DNA of 64,000 nt from Dyella tabacisoli (GTDB lineage Bacteria > Pseudomonadota > Gammaproteobacteria > Xanthomonadales > Rhodanobacteraceae), in the NCBI RefSeq assembly GCF_003350925.1, contig NZ_KZ857174.1, forward strand, positions 563,484 through 627,483, written 5' to 3'. Under the pieces are notes generated by a model. The model did no database searches. It saw only the letters and a program-made list of their open reading frames with translations, and was not told where the DNA came from. The position numbers and the translations under genes are program-made. Of the stretch, positions 30,435 through 41,588 are shown one piece after another (position 1 is the stretch's first letter; each line of letters opens with the position of its first letter).

Positions 30435-30527
30435 ATGCAGCTTGAGTGGTGCTTGCGGTGCCGCGTTCTCTTTTTGATCTTTCTTTGTTTTTGCGCTTGC
30501 TTTTTTGCTCCTGCTTTTTAGGCTTTT

Positions 30528-30583
30528 CCCCGTTCCCCGTTCCCCGTTCCCCGTTCCCCGTTCCCCGTTCCCCGTTCCCCGTT
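30528..30583 (-). repeat. GGGGAAC heptamer array (8 perfect units)
   Basis: On the plus strand CCCCGTT is repeated eight times without error, ending 2 bp from the stop codon of the minus-strand sensor kinase. It can pair with the array at 30407-30434 to form a long hairpin between the convergent genes. Confidence 0.95.
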
Positions 30584-30585
30584 CT

Positions 30586-32034
30586 TCAGCCCTTCCCAGT
30601 CTGTGCCGGCGGAAACAATATCTCCACGCGTAAGCCGCCTTCGTTGCTCGACAAGTAATGCACTCGTGCGCGGTGTCGTTCGGCAATCCGTTGCACGATA
30701 GCCAGGCCCAGGCCTGTGCCTTCTTCGTGGCAGCCAGGCACGCGGAAGAAGCGCTCGCCGAGGCGGGCCAGGAATTCGGCAGGGACGCCGGGGCCGTTGT
30801 CTTCGATGCTGAGGCAGACTTGGCGGTCGTCTTCGATGGTTATCGCCACCGTCACGATGCTGTCGCGGCCGGCGTAGCGCAGGCTGTTGTCGATCAGGTT
30901 GTCGAGCAGTTCTTGCAAGGTCGTGCGGTCGCCGTCGATCCATACGGGGGCAGATGGGCCGTCGTAGCCGAGGTCGACGCCGGCGGCGAGGGCTTCGTGT
31001 ACGCGCAGGCTGAGCAACTCGGGAATGAATCGGCCCAGGTCGATCAGAGCGTGTACGCCGGTTTCATGCTCAGGCGACTGCGCACGGGTCAGTGCCAGCA
31101 ATTGGGTGGATGTGCGGCTGGCGCGGTTGGTCAGTCGCTGAATATGTTCCAGTGCATCGTTGACAGTAGCCGGGCTGGGGTCGGCCTGGGCACGTTCGAC
31201 ATGTACGCGCAGGCCGGCGAGTGGCGTGCGTAGTTGATGCGCCGCGTCGGCGATAAAGCGCTCTTGCAGGGCAAGCATGCCGCGCAGTCGTGCAAACAGG
31301 CCATCGATGGTGCGTGTCAGCGGCAGAATTTCCACCGGAACATCGACGTCGCTGATCGGCGCCAAATCATGTTCGCGCGCGGCCAGCCGCTTAGTGAGCG
31401 GATCGAGTGCGCGCAGGCCGATGCGCACGCCGTACCAGACCAGGGCGAAGACCGCGGCGATCAATAAGGCTTGGGCCGGAATGCTTAGAAACAGAATTTC
31501 GCGCGCACGCTGATGACGGTCGCGCAACGTCTCGGCCATGGTCAAGGTGAGCTTGTCGCTGGGGTCATGCGCGGCTGGAATGCTTATGCTGGCGGCGCGC
31601 AGTTTGCGGTGTTCTTGGGTCGTATTGAATAGCGTCGGGTCGCCGGTGGCGGCGCTCGGCGGCTGCAACTGCGGGTTGCCGGCCAATAGGCCGTGCTTCT
31701 GGCTGCTGACACTGAAATAGTTGTGTCCTTCTGAATCGTAGTCGAGCAGAAAGCGCGCCTGTGCCGAGATCTCGCCGTTTACATTCTCCTTGCTGAGCAT
31801 CTGCGCCATCGTGGACACGTTGTCGGCGAGGTCGCGGTCGTGCACATGGTTGGAATAGATCAGCGCACCCGCGTAAGTGATGAGGCTTTCGATCATCAGC
31901 ATCAGCATCAGCGGGATCAGCAAGAACGCCAGCAGGCGCCGCCGCAGGCTTTGCCGGCCATCAGGCGTCAAGATGCGGTACAGCCAGGGCTGTGGCGGGG
32001 CTGATGTCACCGGAGCGGCATCAGTGTCGCTCAT
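30586..32034 (-). CDS. Sensor histidine kinase (TctE/QseC-like)
   Basis: A 482-aa inner-membrane kinase. TM1 is about residues 33-58 and TM2 about 179-202, enclosing a periplasmic 2CSK_N-like domain. HAMP follows, then HisKA with FIADAAHQLRTPLAGL, the N-box LLDNLIDNSLRYAG, DNGPGVP and EGTGLGLAIVQRI. TctE-type kinases sense tricarboxylates or metals. The start overlaps the regulator's stop (ATGA). It is divergent from the PepSY-ApbE-reductase operon, which makes that operon a plausible target. The stop is 2 bp from an 8-unit heptamer array. Confidence 0.93.
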   Translation of the reverse strand: MSDTDAAPVTSAPPQPWLYRILTPDGRQSLRRRLLAFLLIPLMLMLMIESLITYAGALIYSNHVHDRDLADNVSTMAQMLSKENVNGEISAQARFLLDYDSEGHNYFSVSSQKHGLLAGNPQLQPPSAATGDPTLFNTTQEHRKLRAASISIPAAHDPSDKLTLTMAETLRDRHQRAREILFLSIPAQALLIAAVFALVWYGVRIGLRALDPLTKRLAAREHDLAPISDVDVPVEILPLTRTIDGLFARLRGMLALQERFIADAAHQLRTPLAGLRVHVERAQADPSPATVNDALEHIQRLTNRASRTSTQLLALTRAQSPEHETGVHALIDLGRFIPELLSLRVHEALAAGVDLGYDGPSAPVWIDGDRTTLQELLDNLIDNSLRYAGRDSIVTVAITIEDDRQVCLSIEDNGPGVPAEFLARLGERFFRVPGCHEEGTGLGLAIVQRIAERHRARVHYLSSNEGGLRVEILFPPAQTGKG

Positions 32035-32756
32035 GCCTGGCTATCCTTGGTTTCATCGGCGCGGGTTTCATTGATTTTGGCGTCACCGTTCTTGAGCTCT
32101 TCCAACAGATAGCCAAGGCCGCGGATGGTGCGAACCTGAGTGCCGGAATCGGCGAGCTTGCGGCGCAGGCGGTAGATCGCGATATCCAGGCCGTTGTCGG
32201 TAAGCTCCTCGTCCCAACTGCACAGTGCCTCGATCAATTGCGCACGGCTGGTGACCCGATCGGGTCGCGCGGCCAGGGCTTCGAGCAAGCCGAATTCGCG
32301 TGCGGTGAGTTCAAGCGGTGTTTCACCGAGCCAGGCGCGATGGCCGGGCAAATCGAGTCGAAGCTTGCCGATCAGCAGCTCCGGCGCACCTTGCGCGGTG
32401 TAGCGGCGTAGCAACGCGCGTACACGTGCTTCGAATTCGGCTAGCGCGAATGGCTTGACCAGGTAATCGTCGGCGCCGAGGTCGAGCACACGCACGCGTT
32501 CGCGCAGACCTTCGCGGGCGGTAACTACCAGCACGGGCAGGCCGCTGCCGCGTTTGCGTAAACGCTGCAGTACATCGCTGCCGTCGAGCGCCGGCAGGCC
32601 TAAATCGAGGATGAGCAGGTCATAAGGCGTGTCGCGCAATGCCGCGTCGGCGCGAGCGCCGTCGGCGACATGATCTACCGCGTGTCCGCCTTGGCGTAAC
32701 GAGGCGCTGACGCCAGCGGCGATGGCGGGATCATCTTCGGCGATCAGGATGCGCAC
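32031..32756 (-). CDS. OmpR-family response regulator (TctD/QseB-like)
   Basis: Receiver domain with IAEDD, phosphoacceptor Asp in LLILDLGLPALDG, Lys in VKPF, and a winged-helix domain with DNGLDIAIYRLRRKLADSGTQVRTIRGLGYLLE. I chose GTG 32756 (VRILIAEDD) as the usual receiver start, giving 241 aa; an in-frame ATG at 32795 adds 13 residues that look non-conserved. The region between it and the divergent PepSY gene carries a Fur-like box and two A/T palindromes. Confidence 0.92.
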   Translation of the reverse strand: MRILIAEDDPAIAAGVSASLRQGGHAVDHVADGARADAALRDTPYDLLILDLGLPALDGSDVLQRLRKRGSGLPVLVVTAREGLRERVRVLDLGADDYLVKPFALAEFEARVRALLRRYTAQGAPELLIGKLRLDLPGHRAWLGETPLELTAREFGLLEALAARPDRVTSRAQLIEALCSWDEELTDNGLDIAIYRLRRKLADSGTQVRTIRGLGYLLEELKNGDAKINETRADETKDSQA

Positions 32757-32790
32757 GATGGTTTCCGGGGAGGTAGGGGAGTGAGCGGGG

Positions 32791-32813
32791 CGCAATATAT
32801 TGCGTCAATATTG
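32791..32813. promoter_or_regulatory. Paired A/T palindromes (possible response-regulator operator)
   Basis: CGCAATATATTGCG (32791-32804) is a perfect 14-bp palindrome and CAATATTG (32806-32813) a perfect 8-bp one; together they read as near-direct repeats of CAATAT..TTGCG, a format that suits an OmpR-type regulator dimer. Confidence 0.45.
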
Positions 32814-32828
32814 CGAGTGATTCTCATT
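32810..32828. promoter_or_regulatory. Candidate Fur box upstream of the PepSY-ApbE-reductase operon
   Basis: Read on the minus strand, AATGAGAATCACTCGCAAT. Its core TGAGAATCACTCGCA matches 11 of 15 positions of the TGATAATCATTATCA Fur consensus. It lies 130 bp before the PepSY start and 54 bp before the response regulator start. Confidence 0.5.
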
Positions 32829-32957
32829 TGTGACAGCATGCGGCGCTTACCCAGGGGATGCATGGTGAGCAGCTTACTGCCCGGCACCCGCAGCCGGGAA
32901 TCGGCCTGGGTGTTGGCTACAAGAATCAGAAGATCAGTGCTGGCGCGCTGCTTTTCA

Positions 32958-33626
32958 ATGGACCATATACGGGCATCACCGCAGAGGCAGAAGTTGCAGG
33001 CGCACCAGCAAAATCCGTCCCCCCATCGCTCGTTCTGGCTCAAGCAGCTACATCAATGGCATTGGATCAGTTCGGCGTTGTGCCTGATCGGCATGCTGCT
33101 GTTCGCCGTCACCGGGATCACCCTCAACCATGCGGGGCGGATCGAGGCGAAGCCGCAGACGCAACATCGCCAGGTGCAGTTGCCGGCGCCGCTGCAGCGA
33201 GCGCTGGCCGGCGGCGATGAGCGCAAGGGCGAGCCGCTGCCGCCTGTTGTGGCTGATTGGCTTGGTGATGCGCTGGGTGTATCCATCAACGGTCGCAAAG
33301 GTGATTGGGCGGTGGATGAAATCTATCTGTCGCTGCCGCGACCAGGTGGCGATGCCTGGCTCAGCATCGACCGCGAAACCGGGCAGGTCGAATACGAGCG
33401 CACCGAGCGCGGCTGGGTCTCTTATCTCAATGATTTGCACAAAGGCCGCAACGCCGGCCCGGTGTGGGCCTGGTTTATCGACATCTTTGCACTGGCCTGC
33501 GTGATCTTTTCGGTTACCGGGTTGCTGCTGCTGAAAATGCATGCCGCCAAGCGCGGTGCTACCTGGCCGTTGGTCGCACTGGGCCTGCTGCTGCCGTTGG
33601 TGCTGGCTTTGATTTTTATTCACTGA
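32958..33626 (+). CDS. PepSY-associated transmembrane protein (candidate heme-binding electron conduit)
   Basis: A 222-aa inner-membrane protein. TM1 is about residues 36-56, then a periplasmic PepSY-like domain, TM2 about 168-192 and TM3 about 203-221. Histidines flank the membrane segments at positions 32, 35, 58, 161 and 195 (LHQWHW, LNHAG, LHKGRNAG, KMHAAK), the arrangement seen in heme-binding PepSY reductases such as FoxB. First gene of a five-gene operon with DUF2271, DUF4198, ApbE and diflavin reductase. ATG 32958 lacks a clear ribosome-binding site; upstream in-frame sequence looks non-coding. The heme role is inferred. Confidence 0.85.
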   Translation: MDHIRASPQRQKLQAHQQNPSPHRSFWLKQLHQWHWISSALCLIGMLLFAVTGITLNHAGRIEAKPQTQHRQVQLPAPLQRALAGGDERKGEPLPPVVADWLGDALGVSINGRKGDWAVDEIYLSLPRPGGDAWLSIDRETGQVEYERTERGWVSYLNDLHKGRNAGPVWAWFIDIFALACVIFSVTGLLLLKMHAAKRGATWPLVALGLLLPLVLALIFIH

Positions 33627-33639
33627 ATGAGGAGCGCCC

Positions 33640-34170
33640 ATGCGTCGTCTGAAGTTTTCCAATCTGTTGCTCTCGGCGCCTGCACTGTTGCTCGCAGCGC
33701 CCGTCGCAGCGGCCGATCTCAATGTCACCGTGCAGATTCCGCAACTCAATGTGGCCGAATATCACCGCCCCTATGCCGCGGTGTGGATTGAGCGCGAGGA
33801 TCACAGCGTCGCTACGCAATTAGCCGTTTGGTACGCGCAGAAAGAGAGCAAGGAGGGTGCCGGTACGAAATGGTTGCCCGACCTGCGCCAATGGTGGCGG
33901 CGCGGAGGGCGCGATCTCGCTTTGCCTGTCGATGGCGTTTCCGGTGCGACACGGCCTGCCGGACAGCAACAACTGAAGTTCCAAAGCGGCAAGGCGCCGT
34001 TGAACGATTTACCCGCCGGCAAATACGAACTGGTCGTCGAAGCGGCGCGCGAGGTCGGCGGGCGCGAAGTGGTGCGGGTGCCCTTCGTGTGGCCGGTTAA
34101 GTCGATGCAAAGCCTTGCTGCGCAAGGCCAGACCGAATTGGGTGCGGTCAAGCTCGACCTGGCGCCTTGA
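33640..34170 (+). CDS. DUF2271 periplasmic protein with a flavinylation motif
   Basis: A 176-aa exported protein: signal peptide MRRLKFSNLLLSAPALLLAA, mature start after AAA, then a DUF2271 domain (VQIPQLNVAEYHRPYAAVWIE ... WLPDLRQWWRR). Residues 98-104 read DGVSGAT, which matches the consensus around threonines that ApbE modifies with FMN in NqrB/NqrC/RnfG-type proteins, so Thr104 is a candidate site. The start has GAGGAG 5 nt upstream. It is 13 bp after PepSY, with apbE two genes downstream. Likely a periplasmic flavoprotein electron carrier; this is inference from motif plus context. Confidence 0.85.
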   Translation: MRRLKFSNLLLSAPALLLAAPVAAADLNVTVQIPQLNVAEYHRPYAAVWIEREDHSVATQLAVWYAQKESKEGAGTKWLPDLRQWWRRGGRDLALPVDGVSGATRPAGQQQLKFQSGKAPLNDLPAGKYELVVEAAREVGGREVVRVPFVWPVKSMQSLAAQGQTELGAVKLDLAP

Positions 34171-34211
34171 TCTTTTTGCTGGTCATCAATGACATTCTTT
34201 GGGAGTCCGAC

Positions 34212-35024
34212 ATGTTCAAGCGTTCGTTGAAATGGGCCGCTATCGCCCTGGCACTCAGCCTGCCGTTGGCTGCGCAAGCACACAAGATGTGGCTGTTGCC
34301 ATCAGCCACCAATGTGTCGGGTGTCGATCCATGGGTGACAGTGGATGCCGCCGTATCCAACGATCTGTTCTATCCCGATCACGTGCCGGCAGCGTTGGAT
34401 AAATTAATCATCACTGCACCGGACGGCCAGACGGCTAAAGCGGACAACGCGGTCACCGGTAAATACCGTAGCGTGTTCGACCTGCATCTCACCCAGCAAG
34501 GGACTTACAAACTGGCCCTCATCAGCCAGGGCGTGTTCGCCAATTACGAGATCAACGGCGAAAAGAAACGTTGGCGTGGTGATGCGGTGAATTTGCGCAA
34601 GGAGATTCCCGCGGATGCGAAACAGATCGAAGTTAGCGAATCGATCAATCGTGTCGAGACATTCGTCAGCAACGGCAAGCCCAATGAGGCTGCGCTGAAG
34701 CCCGGCGGCAAGGGTTTGGAGCTGGTGCCGGTTACCCATGTCACCGATCTGGTGGCTGGCGAACCGGCGACCTTTCAATTGCTGCTCGATGGTAAACCGG
34801 CGGCGGATCTGAAGATCACCGCCATCCCCGGCGCCACGCGTTATCGCAATGCGGCCGAAGAGATCAGCAGCAGCACCGACAAGAGCGGCAAGTTCAGTCT
34901 TACCTGGCCGCATGCCGGCATGTATTGGATCAATGCCAGCACCCAAGACGACAAGACCGAAGTGAAGCAAGCCAAGCAACGTCGCTTGTCATACACGGCC
35001 ACCTTGGAAGTGCTGCCGCAGTGA
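34212..35024 (+). CDS. DUF4198 periplasmic protein
   Basis: A 270-aa exported protein with signal peptide MFKRSLKWAAIALALSLPLAAQA. The mature N-terminus HKMWLLPSATNVSG is typical of DUF4198, whose members start with a His right after the signal and often sit with metal-transport genes; an N-terminal His can help form a copper or other metal site. The body looks like two Ig-like beta domains (FQLLLDGKPAADLKITAIPG, WPHAGMYWINASTQ). ATG 34212 has GGGAG 6 nt upstream. It may present metal or dock the substrate for the reductase pathway. Confidence 0.85.
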   Translation: MFKRSLKWAAIALALSLPLAAQAHKMWLLPSATNVSGVDPWVTVDAAVSNDLFYPDHVPAALDKLIITAPDGQTAKADNAVTGKYRSVFDLHLTQQGTYKLALISQGVFANYEINGEKKRWRGDAVNLRKEIPADAKQIEVSESINRVETFVSNGKPNEAALKPGGKGLELVPVTHVTDLVAGEPATFQLLLDGKPAADLKITAIPGATRYRNAAEEISSSTDKSGKFSLTWPHAGMYWINASTQDDKTEVKQAKQRRLSYTATLEVLPQ

Positions 35025-35051
35025 TGCGATGAAAGCACGCATCCCCCGTCG

Positions 35052-36023
35052 ATGACTCGCGCTCCCGCGCTACACAATCTGCACGGCCTGACCATGGGCA
35101 CCACCTGGTCGGTGCGCGTGGTCGTGCCGCAAAGCATTCCGTTGGATGCCTTGCAATACGGGATACAAGACCAGCTCGACCGAGTCGACGAGCAGATGAG
35201 CACCTATAAGCCAGCATCGGCGTTGTCGTGTTTCAACGCTGCATCGACTGGCTGGTATGAGCTTCGTGCGGAGTTTTTCGAGGTAGTGAGCCACGCCATA
35301 TGGCTGGCCAGCGACAGTGGCGGCGCTTACGACCCCACGGTGGGGCCGTTGGTGAATTTATGGGGTTTTGGGCCCGGTCAGCGCGCGCGTGAACGACCCT
35401 CGGCCGACGCTATCGCCGAGGCGCATGGGCGCATCGGCTGGTGGAAGATCAAGCTTGATCCGACGACCCGGCAAGCGTTTCAGCCAGGCGGCATCCAGCT
35501 CGATTTGTCCTCGGTGGCCAAGGGCTACAGCGTCGATCAGGTCGGTCGCTGGCTGGACCGCATGGGCGCGACAGCTTGGCTGGTCGAAGTGGGTGGAGAG
35601 TTGAAAGGCTATGGCATCAAGCCGGACGGCATGCCATGGCGTATCGGCATTGAGCGCCCCGATGCCGCCGCCGGTGCGGTCGAGCGGGTTGACCAGTTGG
35701 AGTGCACACTTGCCCTGAGCGGTCGTGCGATTGCCACCTCAGGCGATTATCGGCATCACTACGAGGACGGCGGTCAGGTTTATTCACACCATATCGACCC
35801 CCGCGATGGGCGGCCGGTGCCGCATGCCGTCGCCTCGGTGAGCGTGCTGGCCAGGGATGCGCTGCAGGCGGACCCGCTGGGTACCACGATGACCATACTC
35901 GGCCCGGAACAAGGGTTGGCGTATGCGGAGGCGCGCGGTTTGGCGGTGTTGTTTATCCTGCGTGGCGAGCATGGTCTGTACGAACGCATGTCGGCGGCAT
36001 TTGCGGCGGCATTGCGGGCATGA
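35052..36023 (+). CDS. apbE: FAD:protein FMN transferase (ApbE family)
   Basis: Transfers FMN from FAD to a Thr/Ser of a target protein. The 323-aa sequence has MGTTWSVRV (15-23), YDPTVGPLVNLWGFG (93-107), LDLSSVAKGYSVD (150-162), VEVGGELKGYG (178-188), ATSGDYRH (228-235), HHIDPRDGRP (246-255) and DALQADPLGTTM (269-280), covering the flavin and Mg sites. Oddity: no signal peptide or lipobox is visible, and no in-frame upstream start exists before a stop at 35022, although most bacterial ApbE proteins are exported. The presumed target is the DUF2271 protein of the same operon. It overlaps the reductase gene by 4 bp. Confidence 0.93.
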   Translation: MTRAPALHNLHGLTMGTTWSVRVVVPQSIPLDALQYGIQDQLDRVDEQMSTYKPASALSCFNAASTGWYELRAEFFEVVSHAIWLASDSGGAYDPTVGPLVNLWGFGPGQRARERPSADAIAEAHGRIGWWKIKLDPTTRQAFQPGGIQLDLSSVAKGYSVDQVGRWLDRMGATAWLVEVGGELKGYGIKPDGMPWRIGIERPDAAAGAVERVDQLECTLALSGRAIATSGDYRHHYEDGGQVYSHHIDPRDGRPVPHAVASVSVLARDALQADPLGTTMTILGPEQGLAYAEARGLAVLFILRGEHGLYERMSAAFAAALRA

Positions 36024-37642
36024 CGCCATGCGACAGCGTGTCTATGAAACGCGCGACTTTCGGCAATGCGATCTTGCTTGCGTTACTGATACTGCTCGCG
36101 TGCGGATTGTTCTCGTTGCACGCCGACGAGTTGTACTGGAGCGATCCGGGGTTGCTTCGGTGGTCGGGCGCTGCGACGGCGATACTGCTCTGGTTCGGCT
36201 TTACTGTATGGCGGTGGCGTGCAGCGAGGGCGGATGCGCTGCCGCTGTCCGCGTACGAAGCGTCGATCGTGATTGCCTATGCCAGTCAAACAGGCACCGC
36301 CGAACAATGGGCGAGGCAAACCGCGCAAAGTCTGCAGGTGGCGTCGCTGCCGGCGCGTTTGATCGAGTTGGAGCGGCTCGACCCCGATGCGATGCGTGCG
36401 GCAGGCCGTGTGTTGTTTGTCGTCAGCACCACCGGCGAGGGTGATGCGCCAGACAGTGCTGCACATTTCTTGCAGCGCTGGATGCGCGAGCCGGTCGATC
36501 TGGCCGGGTTGCAATATGGCTTGCTGGCGTTGGGCGATAGCGATTACCAAGACTTCTGTGGCTTCGGACGTCAACTGCAACACTGGTTGCAGAGCAGTGC
36601 GGCGCAGTCGCTGTTCGATCCGGTCGAGGTCGATAACGGCGACCCCGCCGCGTTGCGGCATTGGCAGCATCATCTGACCTTGCTCAGCGGCGCTAGTGAG
36701 ATGCCGGATTGGCAGCGCCCGCAGTATCAGCGTTGGCAACTATGTGAGCGACGCTTGCTCAATCCCGGCAGCCTGGGCGGGCCATGTTTTCATCTGGCTT
36801 TACGGCCGTTCGATGGCGTAGCCGATTGGCAGGCCGGCGATCTGGTCGAGGTGGGGCCGCGACATGCCGCAGAACACGTGTCGGAATGGCTGGCGCAACT
36901 ATCGCTTGATGGCGATGCGATGGTGCATGTGGAGGACACGCCACGGCGTTTGGCCGAACTGCTCGCATGCAGTCATCTGCCGGCCGCCGATGAGGTGCGC
37001 GGCTGGCCCATGGCGCGTTTGCTTGCCAGCCTGCAACCATTACCGCATCGCGAATACTCGATTGCATCGTTGCCGGTCGATGGCGCACTGCATTTGCTGG
37101 TGCGGCAGATGCGTCGCGAAGATGGCCGTCTGGGATGTGGCTCCGGCTGGCTGACCATGCATGCCGAACTCGGTGATGATATTTCGCTGCGCATTCGCAG
37201 CAATCCTCAATTTCATCCGCCGACAGATGCACAGCCGCTGATTCTGATCGGCAACGGTACCGGTCTGGCGGGCCTGCGTGCTTTGTTGAAAGCGCGCATT
37301 TCCAACGGCCAGCGGCGTCATTGGCTGCTGTTTGGCGAACGCCAGTCGGCTCATGACCATTACTATCGAGACGATATCGAGCGCTGGCAATTGGACGGCT
37401 ATATCGAGCGCATGGACTTGGTCTGGTCACGCGAACAGGCCGCGCGTATCCATGTGCAGCAGCGTTTGCATGAGGCTGCCGATGCGCTGCGGCAATGGGT
37501 GGCCGACGGCGCAGCGATCTATGTCTGCGGCAGTCTTGCCGGGATGGCTCCGGGGGTGGACGCCGTGTTGCGCGAGGTGCTGGGGGCGGCACAGGTTGAG
37601 CAGTTGCGTAGCGAAGGGCGCTATCGGCGCGATGTGTACTAG
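36020..37642 (+). CDS. Membrane-anchored diflavin reductase (sulfite reductase alpha/CPR-like)
   Basis: A 540-aa reductase. Two N-terminal membrane helices (about 14-34 and 45-66) anchor a flavodoxin domain (YASQTGTAEQWA 87-98; STTGEGDAPDSA 136-147; GDSDYQDFCGFG 172-183), then an FAD domain (REYSIAS 344-350; GCGSGWLT 372-379) and an NADPH domain (GNGTGLAGLRALLKAR 411-426; YVCGS 501-505), ending in aromatic VY. The domain order is that of CysJ/cytochrome P450 reductase. The connecting domain is short. It would feed NADPH electrons to the PepSY membrane protein; no sulfite reductase hemoprotein is near. It starts inside the apbE stop. Confidence 0.92.
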   Translation: MTPCDSVSMKRATFGNAILLALLILLACGLFSLHADELYWSDPGLLRWSGAATAILLWFGFTVWRWRAARADALPLSAYEASIVIAYASQTGTAEQWARQTAQSLQVASLPARLIELERLDPDAMRAAGRVLFVVSTTGEGDAPDSAAHFLQRWMREPVDLAGLQYGLLALGDSDYQDFCGFGRQLQHWLQSSAAQSLFDPVEVDNGDPAALRHWQHHLTLLSGASEMPDWQRPQYQRWQLCERRLLNPGSLGGPCFHLALRPFDGVADWQAGDLVEVGPRHAAEHVSEWLAQLSLDGDAMVHVEDTPRRLAELLACSHLPAADEVRGWPMARLLASLQPLPHREYSIASLPVDGALHLLVRQMRREDGRLGCGSGWLTMHAELGDDISLRIRSNPQFHPPTDAQPLILIGNGTGLAGLRALLKARISNGQRRHWLLFGERQSAHDHYYRDDIERWQLDGYIERMDLVWSREQAARIHVQQRLHEAADALRQWVADGAAIYVCGSLAGMAPGVDAVLREVLGAAQVEQLRSEGRYRRDVY

Positions 37643-37772
37643 CAAGTTCTTGTGTGGACGACCGCGGTCGCCATGCCTTAGTTTGTCGGGGATCAGGCTG
37701 ATGTGACCTCTGGCCTATGACGCCGGCACGCGGATAACGCACGCTGCGCTATCACTCGGGGAGATGGGCGAG

Positions 37773-40007
37773 ATGGGGATACGGGTAGGCAAGATCGGTA
37801 TTTTTTGGCTGGCACTGGCGAGTTGCCTTGCGCAGTCGTCGATATCAATGGCTCAAGGCGTGGCAGCCGCAGCACAGCCCGCGGCAGCCAGTTCGACGGC
37901 CGTGGCGGTGCCGCCCGAGATTCCACTCGTCGGTGCCGATGCTGCCGCGGTGAGCGTGCCCAGTGCGGCCAATGCCTGGGGTGGCGAGCGCACGGGCAAT
38001 GAAGCGACTTTGTCTGACCGGGTGGTCAGTTACCGCATCGATGCAGAGCTGGATGCGGCTAAGCATGCGATCAACGGCAAGCAGCAGATGACCTGGCGCA
38101 ACCGCAGTGACCGTGCCGTTCACAGCGTTTATATGCATCTTTATCTCAACGCTTTCCAAAATGAGCGCAGCACTTTTTTTACCGAGCGCAGCGTACTTAC
38201 CGCGCATGGCGATTCTCGTGGCCGGGGGGCGGTGAAGAAAGGACAGTGGGGCTGGATTGAACTCAAGCAGGTGCGGCAAAGCGCCGCGCCGCTGAAATGG
38301 ACTTTTGTGCACCCCGACGGCGGACCGGAAGCGGATCAGACCGTGGTGCGCATTGATCTGGCCGAGCCGGTGCCGGCCGGCGGCACGTTGACGCTGGACA
38401 TCGACTTCCTCAGCCAGTTGCCGCGCGTGATCGAACGCACCGGTTACTTCGGCGATTTCAATATGGTCGGGCAATGGTTTCCGAAAATCGGTGTGCTGGA
38501 GTTGCCGGGTGAGCGTGGCGCCACTGCACCACGCTGGAACGTGCACGAGTTCCATTTCAATAGCGAGTTTTACGCCGATTTCGGCAGTTACGACGTGAGC
38601 ATGACGGTGCCGTCGGACTACACCGTTGGCGCGGTAGGCGAGCAGCAAGGCGAGCCGGTCAAGAAGGACGGCAAGACGACCTATCGCTTCGTGCAGGGCG
38701 ACGTGCACGATTTTGCCTGGGTCGCGGCCAAGGGCTATCAGACGCTGGATGCCAGCTATGTCGGGCCGGGTAGTCCGAAGGTGGCGGTGCGGGTTATCTA
38801 TCCGCCGGAATATCTGGCCAGTGCGCAGCCGGTGTTGAAGGCGACGCTGGATTCGCTGGCCTATTTTTCGAACACGTTGGGCGCGTATCCCTATCGCACA
38901 GTGACTGCGGTGGTGCCGCCATACAACGCCGACGAAGCCGGTGGCATGGAGTACCCGACCTTTTTCACCGCTGAGGGCTACGCCAAGATCGATTCGCAGA
39001 CGGCGGATCAGTGGGAGATCGACTTTGTCACCATCCACGAATTCGGTCACGGCTATTTTTATGGCTTGCTCGCCTCCAATGAATTCGAAGAGCCCATGCT
39101 GGACGAGGGGCTCAACGAATACTGGGACCAGCGCATGCTGCGTGAGCGCAACCAGCGCATCTTGGTTCCGACAACGTGGATGCGTCGGCTGGGTATGACC
39201 CCGACCATGGACGTATTCGCGATGGAGCGCATGTCCGCCGGGCTCGGCCGGCCGGTGGATCCGCTCGGCCAGAACAGTTGGAATCGCCTGTCCAGCAGCA
39301 GTTACGGCACGGTGTATTCGCGCACGGCCACGGCGATGCATGATCTCGAAGAGCGCCTAGGCAAGGAGGTCACCGAGCGCGCTTTCCGCGAGTACTACAA
39401 GCGCTGGCATTTCCGTCATCCATCCGTCGCCGATTTGCGTGCTGCGTTGATCGATGTGTCAGGCGATGCGAAAACCGTCAATGAAGTTTTCGATCAGTAC
39501 GTGTTCGGTACCGCGAAAATCGACGACCGTATAAGTGCGATCGACAACAAAGAGGTGCTGCCGCTGGCCGGTTCCGAATCGAAAGACGGCAAGCGCAGCG
39601 AGGTCGATGCGGATGCGCTGGATAAGCAGATTGCCAAGCAGCGCAGTGATTGGAAAAAGGCCCATCCCGATGCCAAGCCCGACAGTGGCGGCCCCTTTCC
39701 TTGGCGCGGCACGGTCACCGTGGTGCGTGATGGAGCGCAGGTGCCGCAGCTACTGCGGGTGAAGTTCGCCGACGGCAGTAGCGAGGATGTGCATTGGAAT
39801 GACGACCGTCGTTGGGCGCGTTTCGTTTTCACCAAGCCGACGAAGATCGTCTCGGCCGAACTGGATCCCGAACAGAAGATCTATCTGGACGCGAACAAAC
39901 TCAATGACAGCCTGACGACCAAGCCCAATGGCGCGGCGTCGCGTCGCTGGGGGGCCGATGTCGGGGCCTTGGTGCAGGCTTTCTACGCATTTCTGGTGAC
40001 CCTCTGA
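37773..40007 (+). CDS. Secreted M1-family aminopeptidase
   Basis: A 744-aa zinc metallopeptidase. The signal peptide ends about SSISMAQG. The M1 catalytic region shows GGMEYPTFFT (the GxMEN-like substrate motif, with Tyr for Asn) and HEFGHGYFYG then E after 18 residues (zinc ligands His422, His426, Glu445). The N-terminal beta domain (RVVSYRIDAELDAAKHAINGKQQMTWRN) is typical. ATG 37773 is 9 nt after GGGGAG, a better start than 37764. Its stop overlaps the next gene (TGATGG), a membrane protein that is likely a functional partner. Confidence 0.92.
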   Translation: MGIRVGKIGIFWLALASCLAQSSISMAQGVAAAAQPAAASSTAVAVPPEIPLVGADAAAVSVPSAANAWGGERTGNEATLSDRVVSYRIDAELDAAKHAINGKQQMTWRNRSDRAVHSVYMHLYLNAFQNERSTFFTERSVLTAHGDSRGRGAVKKGQWGWIELKQVRQSAAPLKWTFVHPDGGPEADQTVVRIDLAEPVPAGGTLTLDIDFLSQLPRVIERTGYFGDFNMVGQWFPKIGVLELPGERGATAPRWNVHEFHFNSEFYADFGSYDVSMTVPSDYTVGAVGEQQGEPVKKDGKTTYRFVQGDVHDFAWVAAKGYQTLDASYVGPGSPKVAVRVIYPPEYLASAQPVLKATLDSLAYFSNTLGAYPYRTVTAVVPPYNADEAGGMEYPTFFTAEGYAKIDSQTADQWEIDFVTIHEFGHGYFYGLLASNEFEEPMLDEGLNEYWDQRMLRERNQRILVPTTWMRRLGMTPTMDVFAMERMSAGLGRPVDPLGQNSWNRLSSSSYGTVYSRTATAMHDLEERLGKEVTERAFREYYKRWHFRHPSVADLRAALIDVSGDAKTVNEVFDQYVFGTAKIDDRISAIDNKEVLPLAGSESKDGKRSEVDADALDKQIAKQRSDWKKAHPDAKPDSGGPFPWRGTVTVVRDGAQVPQLLRVKFADGSSEDVHWNDDRRWARFVFTKPTKIVSAELDPEQKIYLDANKLNDSLTTKPNGAASRRWGADVGALVQAFYAFLVTL

Positions 40008-40961: not shown

Positions 40962-41002
40962 AGCCGCTTGCATGGAAGCGGCGAGCGGCCACGCTTTATT
41001 CC

Positions 41003-41044
41003 GTTCCCCGTTCCCCGTTCCCCGTTCCCCGTTCCCCGTTCCCC
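41003..41044 (-). repeat. GGGGAAC heptamer array (6 units)
   Basis: Six perfect GTTCCCC units on the plus strand (GGGGAAC on the minus strand) begin 1 bp past the stop codon of the minus-strand GNAT gene. Confidence 0.95.
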
Positions 41045-41045
41045 G

Positions 41046-41588
41046 TCAGGCGTAAGCGCAACGGCTCTCGATAGTCGGCGGGTAATAGGCGAATACATGG
41101 TTGTGGCAACCGTAGAAATCCATGTCTTCGATATGCTCGCCGCCGAGACGTTCGGCGACGCGGTCGGAAGCTTCATTGCCGATACGCACCATGCTGATGA
41201 TCCGCCGCGCGCGTAGCTTGCGCCAGGCGAATTCGAGTACGGCACAACCGGCTTCGGTGGCGTAACCGTGGTGGCGGTATTCGGGCTTGAGCATCCAGCC
41301 CAGTTCCAGTTCGGGCCAACCCTCTGGATACATCAGGCCGGCGCGGCCGATGAACTCGCCCGTGGATTTCAATTCCAGTGCCCACATGCCGTAGCCGCGT
41401 AGTTGCCAATGGCCCAGCAGCATCGCCAGCGAGCGCCAGGCATTGCTGCGGTCCAGCGGTTGGCCGTCGCCGATCCAACGGGTGCTGGCAGGGTCGGCGA
41501 GCATCGCGGCGTAGTCGTCGAAATGTCGGTCGGTCAGCGCGGTTAAACGCAGGCGTTTCGTTTCGAGGATAGGGATATCGGACATCAC
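41046..41588 (-). CDS. RimJ/RimL-type GNAT N-acetyltransferase
   Basis: A 180-aa acetyltransferase with N-terminal LETKRLRLTALTDRHFDDY (RimL-type), the core ELGWMLKPEYRHHGYATEAGCAVLEFAW with the acetyl-CoA loop, and ISMVRIGNEASDRVAERLGG. Related proteins acetylate ribosomal proteins or small amines; the target is unknown. Two ATGs (41588 and 41585) open the frame. The stop lies 1 bp from a 6-unit heptamer array. Confidence 0.9.
   Translation of the reverse strand: MMSDIPILETKRLRLTALTDRHFDDYAAMLADPASTRWIGDGQPLDRSNAWRSLAMLLGHWQLRGYGMWALELKSTGEFIGRAGLMYPEGWPELELGWMLKPEYRHHGYATEAGCAVLEFAWRKLRARRIISMVRIGNEASDRVAERLGGEHIEDMDFYGCHNHVFAYYPPTIESRCAYA

Follow-up and report, generated by a model that had tools for sequence, protein, structure and literature searches.

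How an exported flavoprotein may obtain its covalently bound flavin mononucleotide (FMN) when the transferase encoded beside it carries no recognizable export signal is the question raised by a five-gene operon of Dyella tabacisoli, which lies on the + strand of a 64,000-nucleotide stretch of contig NZ_KZ857174.1 (positions 563,484 to 627,483; the window in what follows, to whose own numbering all positions refer). As judged from open reading frames (ORFs) and Pfam matches, the operon encodes, in order, a PepSY_TM_like_2 protein, a DUF2271 protein, a DUF4198 protein, the transferase ApbE and a membrane-anchored diflavin reductase. The favoured reading, which rests on sequence and to which we give a probability of roughly 55%, is that of a Fur-repressed periplasmic ferric reductase module, driven by reduced nicotinamide adenine dinucleotide phosphate (NADPH), in which the flavin would be attached before export through the general secretory (Sec) pathway. 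The module and its iron role are already known; the location of the transferase is the feature that is new to the present analysis, and the rest of the mechanism is plausible and largely published.

Within the operon, only the DUF2271 protein carries a conserved D..[ST]G[AP][ST] motif, found in 108/112 DUF2271 sequences and 1/100 reductases, and in none of the PepSY (0/112), DUF4198 (0/111) and ApbE (0/104) sequences. The flavinylation motif that an initial annotation of the stretch had placed on an exported DUF2271 protein is present (DGVSGAT, residues 98-104) and conserved: its SGAT tetrapeptide (residues 101-104) fits the [S/T]GA[S/T] substrate motif, the tetrapeptide reads SGAT, TGPT or TGAT in 107/112 homologues, and Thr104 is found in all 112. 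A DUF2271 protein has been reported to be flavinylated at the [S/T]GA[S/T] threonine, and a signal-truncated DUF2271 to be flavinylated in Escherichia coli together with a signal-truncated ApbE (PMC8238504), which fits flavinylation of the precursor in the cytosol. The N-terminus of DUF2271 is of the Sec type; export of the pre-folded, flavinylated protein by twin-arginine translocation (Tat) was considered and rejected, a Tat-like motif being found in 1/112 sequences.

The operon ApbE, in turn, has residues H246, D249, D274 and T278, which are conserved in at least 95% of 104 sequences, and is preceded by very little: upstream of the GTTW motif with which the domain begins there are 24 open codons in all, and an N-terminus cannot be longer than 15 residues, none of the possible ones being signal-like. 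With at most 15 residues ahead of the domain, no signal peptide fits. The initial annotation was silent on this point, and for flavinylation as an ordinary periplasmic reaction of ApbE the sequence offers no support. Elsewhere, the longest N-termini before the domain are of 15 residues in the same-genus locus L047, 19 in two Xanthomonas loci and 34 in a third (L088); two of 106 operon ApbEs, having no recognizable domain start, were left out of this measurement. When a hydrophobicity rule (not SignalP) was applied to the N-termini, its strict setting scored as signal-like 20/106 operon ApbEs, 111/112 DUF4198 proteins, 84/112 DUF2271 proteins and 2/30 cytosolic response regulators; at the permissive setting the counts were 35/106, 112/112, 104/112 and 13/30, respectively, which leaves 71 of the 106 operon ApbEs without a signal. 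A conserved RVLIP-like peptide at the N-terminus of the cytosolic ApbEs was also considered and dropped, being found in 3/104 by the chosen start codons.

Flavinylation could nonetheless be periplasmic in the ordinary way, if the operon ApbE were exported without an N-terminal signal (e.g. with a partner) or if another, exported ApbE did the work. We regard this as rather unlikely. It agrees with a review according to which most bacterial ApbEs seem to be secreted and the periplasmic location is essential in Salmonella, with the presence in some genomes of a second ApbE that starts with a membrane segment or a signal (e.g. L155, L157, L160), and with four genomes in which the operon has no adjacent apbE (G049, G065, G090 and that of Stutzerimonas frequens), the sole ApbE of each being signal- or anchor-like, with a lipobox seen by eye in three. 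Against it stand the genomes in which no such enzyme is at hand. ApbE is present in all 33 module-bearing genomes of a 99-genome set, but in 12 of these no ApbE has a signal-like start under the permissive rule, and the same holds for 7 of 19 named genomes scored (two of S. maltophilia, C. segnis, X. vasicola, Variovorax, one Sphingomonas and L. xinjiangensis), in all seven of which DUF2271 starts like a signal peptide; the complete genome of S. maltophilia D457, with a single ApbE, is among those without a signal-like ApbE. Furthermore, no sequence sign of an unconventional export route for ApbE was seen. The twentieth named genome, of Brevundimonas, was left out, ApbE being in three pieces; these lie separately on the chromosome of Brevundimonas albigilva (G100; L185, L192, L194) and may reflect frameshifts or sequence errors.

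The D. tabacisoli genome itself encodes two ApbEs, of which the operon one scores 0.53 and the second, on contig C3, 1.47. The latter (L152:720-3598), which has no clear signal, adjoins an exported-looking FMN_bind protein and a DUF6662 protein, and its look-alikes in L153, L159 and L161 score 0.2 or less.

The distribution of signal-bearing and signal-less enzymes can be followed on an ApbE tree, which was a quick one, with support only from the Shimodaira-Hasegawa-like approximate likelihood ratio test (SH-aLRT). Its labels were set by threshold, except that L034 and L046 were labelled by hand and six sequences were excluded; L055 is signal-like but was labelled none. The tree needs 5 changes of signal label, 4 of them forced by well-supported branches, versus 17.8 in shuffles, and the window ApbE falls among 19 rows that form a signal-less set with support 96, itself nested in a larger group of 29 rows, 8 of which look exported. 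The repeated change of label implies that the signal state of ApbE has changed more than once beside a DUF2271 threonine that has not changed. Whether these are widespread iron-reduction operons whose cytosolic ApbE was relocated more than once beside a substrate that stayed periplasmic, and would put FMN on the unfolded, signal-bearing DUF2271 precursor close to the supply of flavin adenine dinucleotide (FAD), is in our judgement evenly balanced.

A signal-less ApbE could also have some other cytosolic substrate, or a role in flavin handling, with DUF2271 left unflavinylated in these species. According to the review, the cytosolic ApbE of Klebsiella pneumoniae, which likewise has no signal peptide, flavinylates fumarate reductase, and in its available text cytosolic ApbEs are named only for fumarate reductases; that substrate, however, is a soluble protein, not an exported one. 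The start of the reductase gene overlaps the apbE stop by 4 base pairs (bp) in 65/96 loci, and a looser [ST]GA[ST] is found in 21/100 reductases, including that of the window (SGAS at 223). Yet one reductase of 100 has the motif in its complete form, D..[ST]G[AP][ST], and Thr104 and its motif are retained in species with a signal-less ApbE, so that this alternative is judged improbable. The reductase or the PepSY protein as the true ApbE substrate was likewise set aside, since neither has a conserved full motif, the looser one of the reductases notwithstanding.

In the mechanism proposed here, the membrane-anchored diflavin reductase would take electrons from NADPH and hand them, via FAD and FMN, on to PepSY, in which paired histidines may hold one heme near each membrane face; the periplasmic heme would reduce the covalent FMN of DUF2271, and this FMN would reduce Fe(III) or a ferric chelate. 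The DUF4198 protein would bind metal via its N-terminal histidine, either as a docking partner or by holding released Fe(II) until its import by FeoB. ApbE, on the cytosolic side, would modify the DUF2271 precursor with FMN at Thr104 ahead of its export by Sec, and the operon would be repressed by Fur. The order NADPH, FAD/FMN, PepSY heme, DUF2271 FMN is considered probable, the hemes, the path and the acceptor being predicted, and the route from NADPH to the DUF2271 FMN suggested in the initial annotation is plausible; we hold the cytosolic flavinylation of DUF2271 by the operon ApbE before export at even odds. Were it to occur, the assumption that exported proteins are flavinylated after export would fail, as would the view that the location of ApbE decides which proteins are flavinylated; the system would need no periplasmic FAD supply, and the Sec channel would have to pass a chain with a bulky covalent cofactor. 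No description of a signal-less ApbE with an exported substrate was found in the main-text passages and search results consulted from the open-licence PMC literature.

The five genes are kept together in order far beyond chance. All five ORFs are found on the + strand at the coordinates first proposed for them, with the identities first proposed, as Pfam matches bear out, and the intergenic gaps (13, 41, 27 and -4 bp along the operon) agree exactly with the range of -4 to 41 bp given at the outset. The lack of a conserved gene order in relatives, which the initial annotation had named as grounds for abandoning the module, was looked for: the order is kept in 25/34 loci taken from other genomes of the 99-genome set and in 73/80 named loci, the latter found with the PepSY profile and being the best-scoring 80 of at least 585 confirmed PepSY relatives, a selection that favours near kin. 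Among the 34 loci, the exceptions are L054-L056, which lack the reductase, L059-L060, where apbE is not adjacent, L061, which lies at the end of a contig, and L062-L064, with a different arrangement of DUF2271. The DUF2271 gene is present in 33/99 genomes searched, the own genome included (two sub-threshold matches, in G079 and G094, were left out of the count), and PepSY_TM_like_2 scores above 140 bits in exactly these 33. Operons of this kind were found at named loci of Stenotrophomonas, Xanthomonas, Achromobacter, Cupriavidus, Caulobacter and others; the closest named relatives of the PepSY protein are from Dyella species, the best with 77% identity among the matches listed. At L062, L063 and L064, left out of the alignments as holding a different type of DUF2271, this gene adjoins ApbE in a different arrangement, with a distant DUF4198 relative also present in L062 and L063; ApbE is signal-like in L062 and L064, and in L154, which holds the same gene as that of L063.

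The reductase matches CysJ and NADPH-cytochrome P450 reductase (CPR) in both modules (phmmer), with PF00258 and PF00175 over cut-off and FAD_binding_1 at 23 bits versus a cut-off of 32.3. It is not CysJ itself, reaching 234 bits against the 668 required by the NCBIfam cysJ equivalog. With these enzymes it has in common the flavodoxin module, the FAD/NADPH module, the conserved S470-R471 and the C-terminal tyrosine (Y540), all three residues falling in conserved columns, but it differs in its N-terminal membrane segment(s) and in a shorter stretch between the modules. By analogy with the CPR and CysJ families, we take S470, R471 and the terminal tyrosine to mean NADPH rather than NADH. The two-helix anchor first proposed stands in part: the first hydrophobic segment is strong, its 17 residues having a mean hydropathy of 2.88, and two N-terminal segments are found in 64/87 reductases scored, but in the window the second is weak (1.30); 13 of 100 reductases without a recognizable flavodoxin start were left out of this scoring.

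As to the PepSY protein, its ORF scores above cut-off with both PepSY Pfam models (PF03929 and PF16357) and has DUF2271 and ApbE beside it. The paired histidines noticed earlier at its membrane edges proved to be real, being conserved in 102 to 112 of 112 homologues: H35, H161 and H222 in all 112, H195 in 109 and H58 in 102. An AlphaFold model (mean predicted local distance difference test, pLDDT, 83; predicted template modelling score, pTM, 0.65) has long helices at 22-59, 168-196 and 200-221, with three membrane helices and one periplasmic domain, and places H35 and H195 near one face, presumably cytosolic, and H58, H161 and H222 near the other, presumably periplasmic. This placement on both faces fits two hemes, as for FoxB, the PepSY ferrisiderophore reductase of Pseudomonas aeruginosa, which has a PepSY domain and histidines on both membrane faces and binds two hemes (PMC13038864). 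The two proteins differ in architecture, that of the window being built of three helices and a single periplasmic domain. FoxB was not recovered by structure search, a result that is not counted as a negative. The alignments used with the PepSY and DUF4198 models included 62/80 named PepSY and 61/79 named DUF4198 sequences plus the window protein. The start of the PepSY gene may be TTG 33006 instead of ATG 32958, because the chosen start of the same-genus L047 lies near it and strong conservation begins from R24. The presumed heme ligand H58 is an asparagine in ten sequences (L073, L075, L076, L083, L084, L086, L108, L115, L117 and L123), from Achromobacter, Bordetella and Methylophilus, in which H35, H161 and H222 stay.

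That the module serves iron-related periplasmic reduction is very probable. A Fur-type motif was trained on 112 upstream regions of relatives, and its best site lies above the 99% level of single-base shuffles in 82/112 of them, a result that is supportive only, the test set being the training set and the procedure partly circular. For this reason, weight is put on the commonest unseeded 10-mer, AAATGAGAAT, which occurs in 24/112 upstream regions and, read on the opposite strand, falls within this motif, and on a match elsewhere in the own genome: the core pattern GARTGATTCTCATT, with at most one mismatch, occurs there twice only, at the operon and ahead of the hemin-uptake gene hemP, whose identity Pfam confirms, and its reversed control pattern not at all. 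With the 21-base version of the motif, the operon itself is the sole match in the own genome. Against a 19-mer Fur consensus, the window site is weak, scoring 12/19, a value reached by 8.5% of shuffles, and 17/32 upstream regions are at the 5% shuffle level or better. FeoB is found in 31/33 genomes with the module versus 45/66 without it (Fisher p 0.005, uncorrected for kinship).

In Caulobacter, expression of genes CC3059-3063 rises 12- to 44-fold when iron is limiting and 16- to 51-fold in a fur mutant, and Fur binds the promoter (PMC3751524); mutants in CCNA_03155-03159 are less fit in ethylenediaminetetraacetic acid (EDTA; PMC12004947), and in Alteromonas DUF2271 and DUF4198 have been linked to iron limitation (PMC7190382). 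Table 1 of the Caulobacter study lists a riboflavin biosynthesis operon as Fur-controlled alongside the five-gene operon (PMC3751524), which fits a demand for flavin. Among the papers listed on Fur in Xanthomonas, nothing was found on this operon. The link to iron made in the initial annotation is, thus, backed by the Fur-type site, the association with FeoB and the published Caulobacter genetics, and the operon probably sends electrons outward to loosen scarce iron.

Electrons could also be destined for an acceptor other than nutrient iron. The MsrPQ system supplies electrons for oxidized methionines, and periplasmic repair or respiration of this kind would be in line with the core that MsrQ-like and PepSY-like cytochromes are described as having in common, together with 108 clusters. 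The regulation, however, appears to be iron-linked, and the conserved unit, for which only the genes of the window served as queries (other neighbours being unannotated), takes in no other oxidoreductase from the window, so that we consider such a role very unlikely.

The DUF4198 protein, to which no role had been assigned at first, has a metal-binding fold and a predicted mature N-terminal histidine: cleavage is predicted at A-Q-A, so that the mature chain would start with His24 (codon 34281-34283), which is found in 111/111 homologues. Its AlphaFold model (pLDDT 89.7) matches Zcp with bound copper (PDB 9MHM; Z 21.0, 216 aligned) and the nickel protein IsDUF4198 (PDB 9GCB; Z 16.5, root mean square deviation 4.0, 206 aligned), the next structures having Z of 9 or less. 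The fold is the same as in these proteins, and the 9GCB alignment begins with model residue 24 on chain residue 1, the metal-binding His1, although identity to the window protein is about 15%. In IsDUF4198, His1 and His18 are reported to bind Ni(II) with a dissociation constant (Kd) of 18 nM; the candidate second ligand here, H57 (106/111), would be residue 34 of the mature chain, versus the published His18. PDB entries 9mhi-9mho, titled 'Zcp', name their molecule phosphoribosylglycinamide formyltransferase, and by fold and profile match it is a DUF4198 protein.

The same structures bring up the possibility that the metal reduced or loaded by the module is nickel, copper or yet another, DUF4198 being the protein that binds it. 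Apart from the nickel affinity of IsDUF4198, the titles of the Zcp structures name Cu, Zn and Co as bound metals, and the PepSY protein CrpH has been described to support copper oxidases in Bordetella. The Fur-type site and the hemP match, however, speak for iron, as do the Fur and iron control and the EDTA phenotype of the operon in Caulobacter, though another genus, and a metal other than iron has, in our estimate, little likelihood.

Several observations weigh against the favoured reading in one or another of its parts. On the side of the transferase, 19 to 20 operon ApbEs look exported, the permissive rule also flags 13/30 cytosolic response regulators, the strict one misses 28/112 DUF2271 proteins, and the second ApbE of the own genome (1.47) exceeds the permissive threshold, if only when read from a GTG start. 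According to work cited in the review, complementation by a cytosolic ApbE of Salmonella failed, and the cognate ApbE of the DUF2271 protein flavinylated in E. coli has a signal peptide naturally, which was truncated for the test (PMC8238504). The looser motif of the reductases and the preference of the characterized DUF4198 for Ni(II) belong here too. On the side of electron transfer, H58 is an asparagine in 10/112 and H195 is lost in 3/112, so that the pairing of presumed heme ligands may vary; structure searches with the PepSY model by Foldseek (best E 0.09) and VIA gave no meaningful match and did not recover FoxB, and the PepSY profile matched no PDB chain, FoxB included. Finally, no reductase lies beside the operon in L054-L056 or in the Sphingomonas loci L137 and L143, and every reductase match in genomes G009, G011 and G060 is weaker, CysJ-like or partial; the reductase is, therefore, not always the donor. 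At L054, L055 and L056 (genomes G060, G009 and G011) the electron donor may differ. A pairing of reductase loss with an exported ApbE was considered and given up: L054-L056 fit it, Sphingomonas not clearly (L143 0.52; L137 1.54 via a TTG start).

The relation to described systems can be stated more closely. Meheust et al. (2021; PMC8238504) report 3220 flavinylation clusters of the PepSY-like kind, of which 2833 include DUF2271 and 1500 DUF4198, and propose iron reduction for them, so that the link of PepSY and DUF2271 to ApbE given in the initial annotation is correct and published. Their systems have in common with the window operon the PepSY-like protein, ApbE, a DUF2271 protein with [S/T]GA[S/T] and a secreted DUF4198; they differ in being framed on extracytosolic flavinylation, the main text making no mention of cytosolic or intracellular ApbE or of sulfite reductase. 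These authors define their systems by one or more target genes that encode a signal peptide or a lipidation site, to which the Sec-type N-terminus of DUF2271 corresponds here. Closer still is Caulobacter crescentus CC3059-CC3063 (CCNA_03155-03159), annotated as transporter (PepSY-family), DUF2271, DUF4198, ApbE and sulfite reductase flavoprotein (PMC3751524), with the same gene kinds, order and Fur control, although it belongs to another class of bacteria and the window operon adjoins a divergent two-component system and an M1-type peptidase. In the C. segnis operon, ApbE is signal-less too. Because the Caulobacter operon has the same five genes, the novelty implied at first was overstated. 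The electron path and the job of DUF4198 are not shown in the accessible text of the literature on the operon; added here are the Fur-type site common to relatives and hemP, the invariant predicted N-terminal histidine of DUF4198 and the signal-less ApbE.

Table 1. Features of the operon and its upstream region, in window coordinates.
Feature	Coordinates	Strand	Remarks
Putative Fur-type operator TATTGCGAGTGATTCTCATTT	32809..32829	+	Between divergent response regulator and operon
PepSY_TM_like_2 protein	32958..33626	+	PF16357 E 8e-86; candidate two-heme conduit, three predicted membrane helices
DUF2271 protein	33640..34170	+	PF10029 E 1.6e-49; Sec-type signal peptide; predicted covalent FMN carrier
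DGVSGAT codons, ApbE flavinylation motif	33931..33951	+	DUF2271 residues 98-104; acceptor Thr104
DUF4198 protein	34212..35024	+	PF10670 E 3e-59; candidate periplasmic metal binder
ApbE FAD:protein FMN transferase	35052..36023	+	PF02424 E 4.5e-81, 272.7 bits; no signal peptide or lipobox
Diflavin reductase (flavodoxin, FAD and NADPH modules)	36020..37642	+	Flavodoxin_1 E 2e-26; NAD_binding_1 E 2e-10

The operon is flanked by a divergent two-component pair (2CSK_N kinase and OmpR-type regulator; 30586-32759, minus strand) and, downstream, by the M1-type peptidase (37764-40007, plus strand). Both genes of the pair lie beside the operon in 13/80 named loci, and the pair is also found in further relatives; the divergent response regulator and the operon have the region of the Fur-type site in common. 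Two perfect tandem repeats with a 7-base unit, in opposite orientation, are found further out, TTCCCCG in 8.4 copies at 30526-30584 and CCGTTCC in 6.6 copies at 41001-41046.

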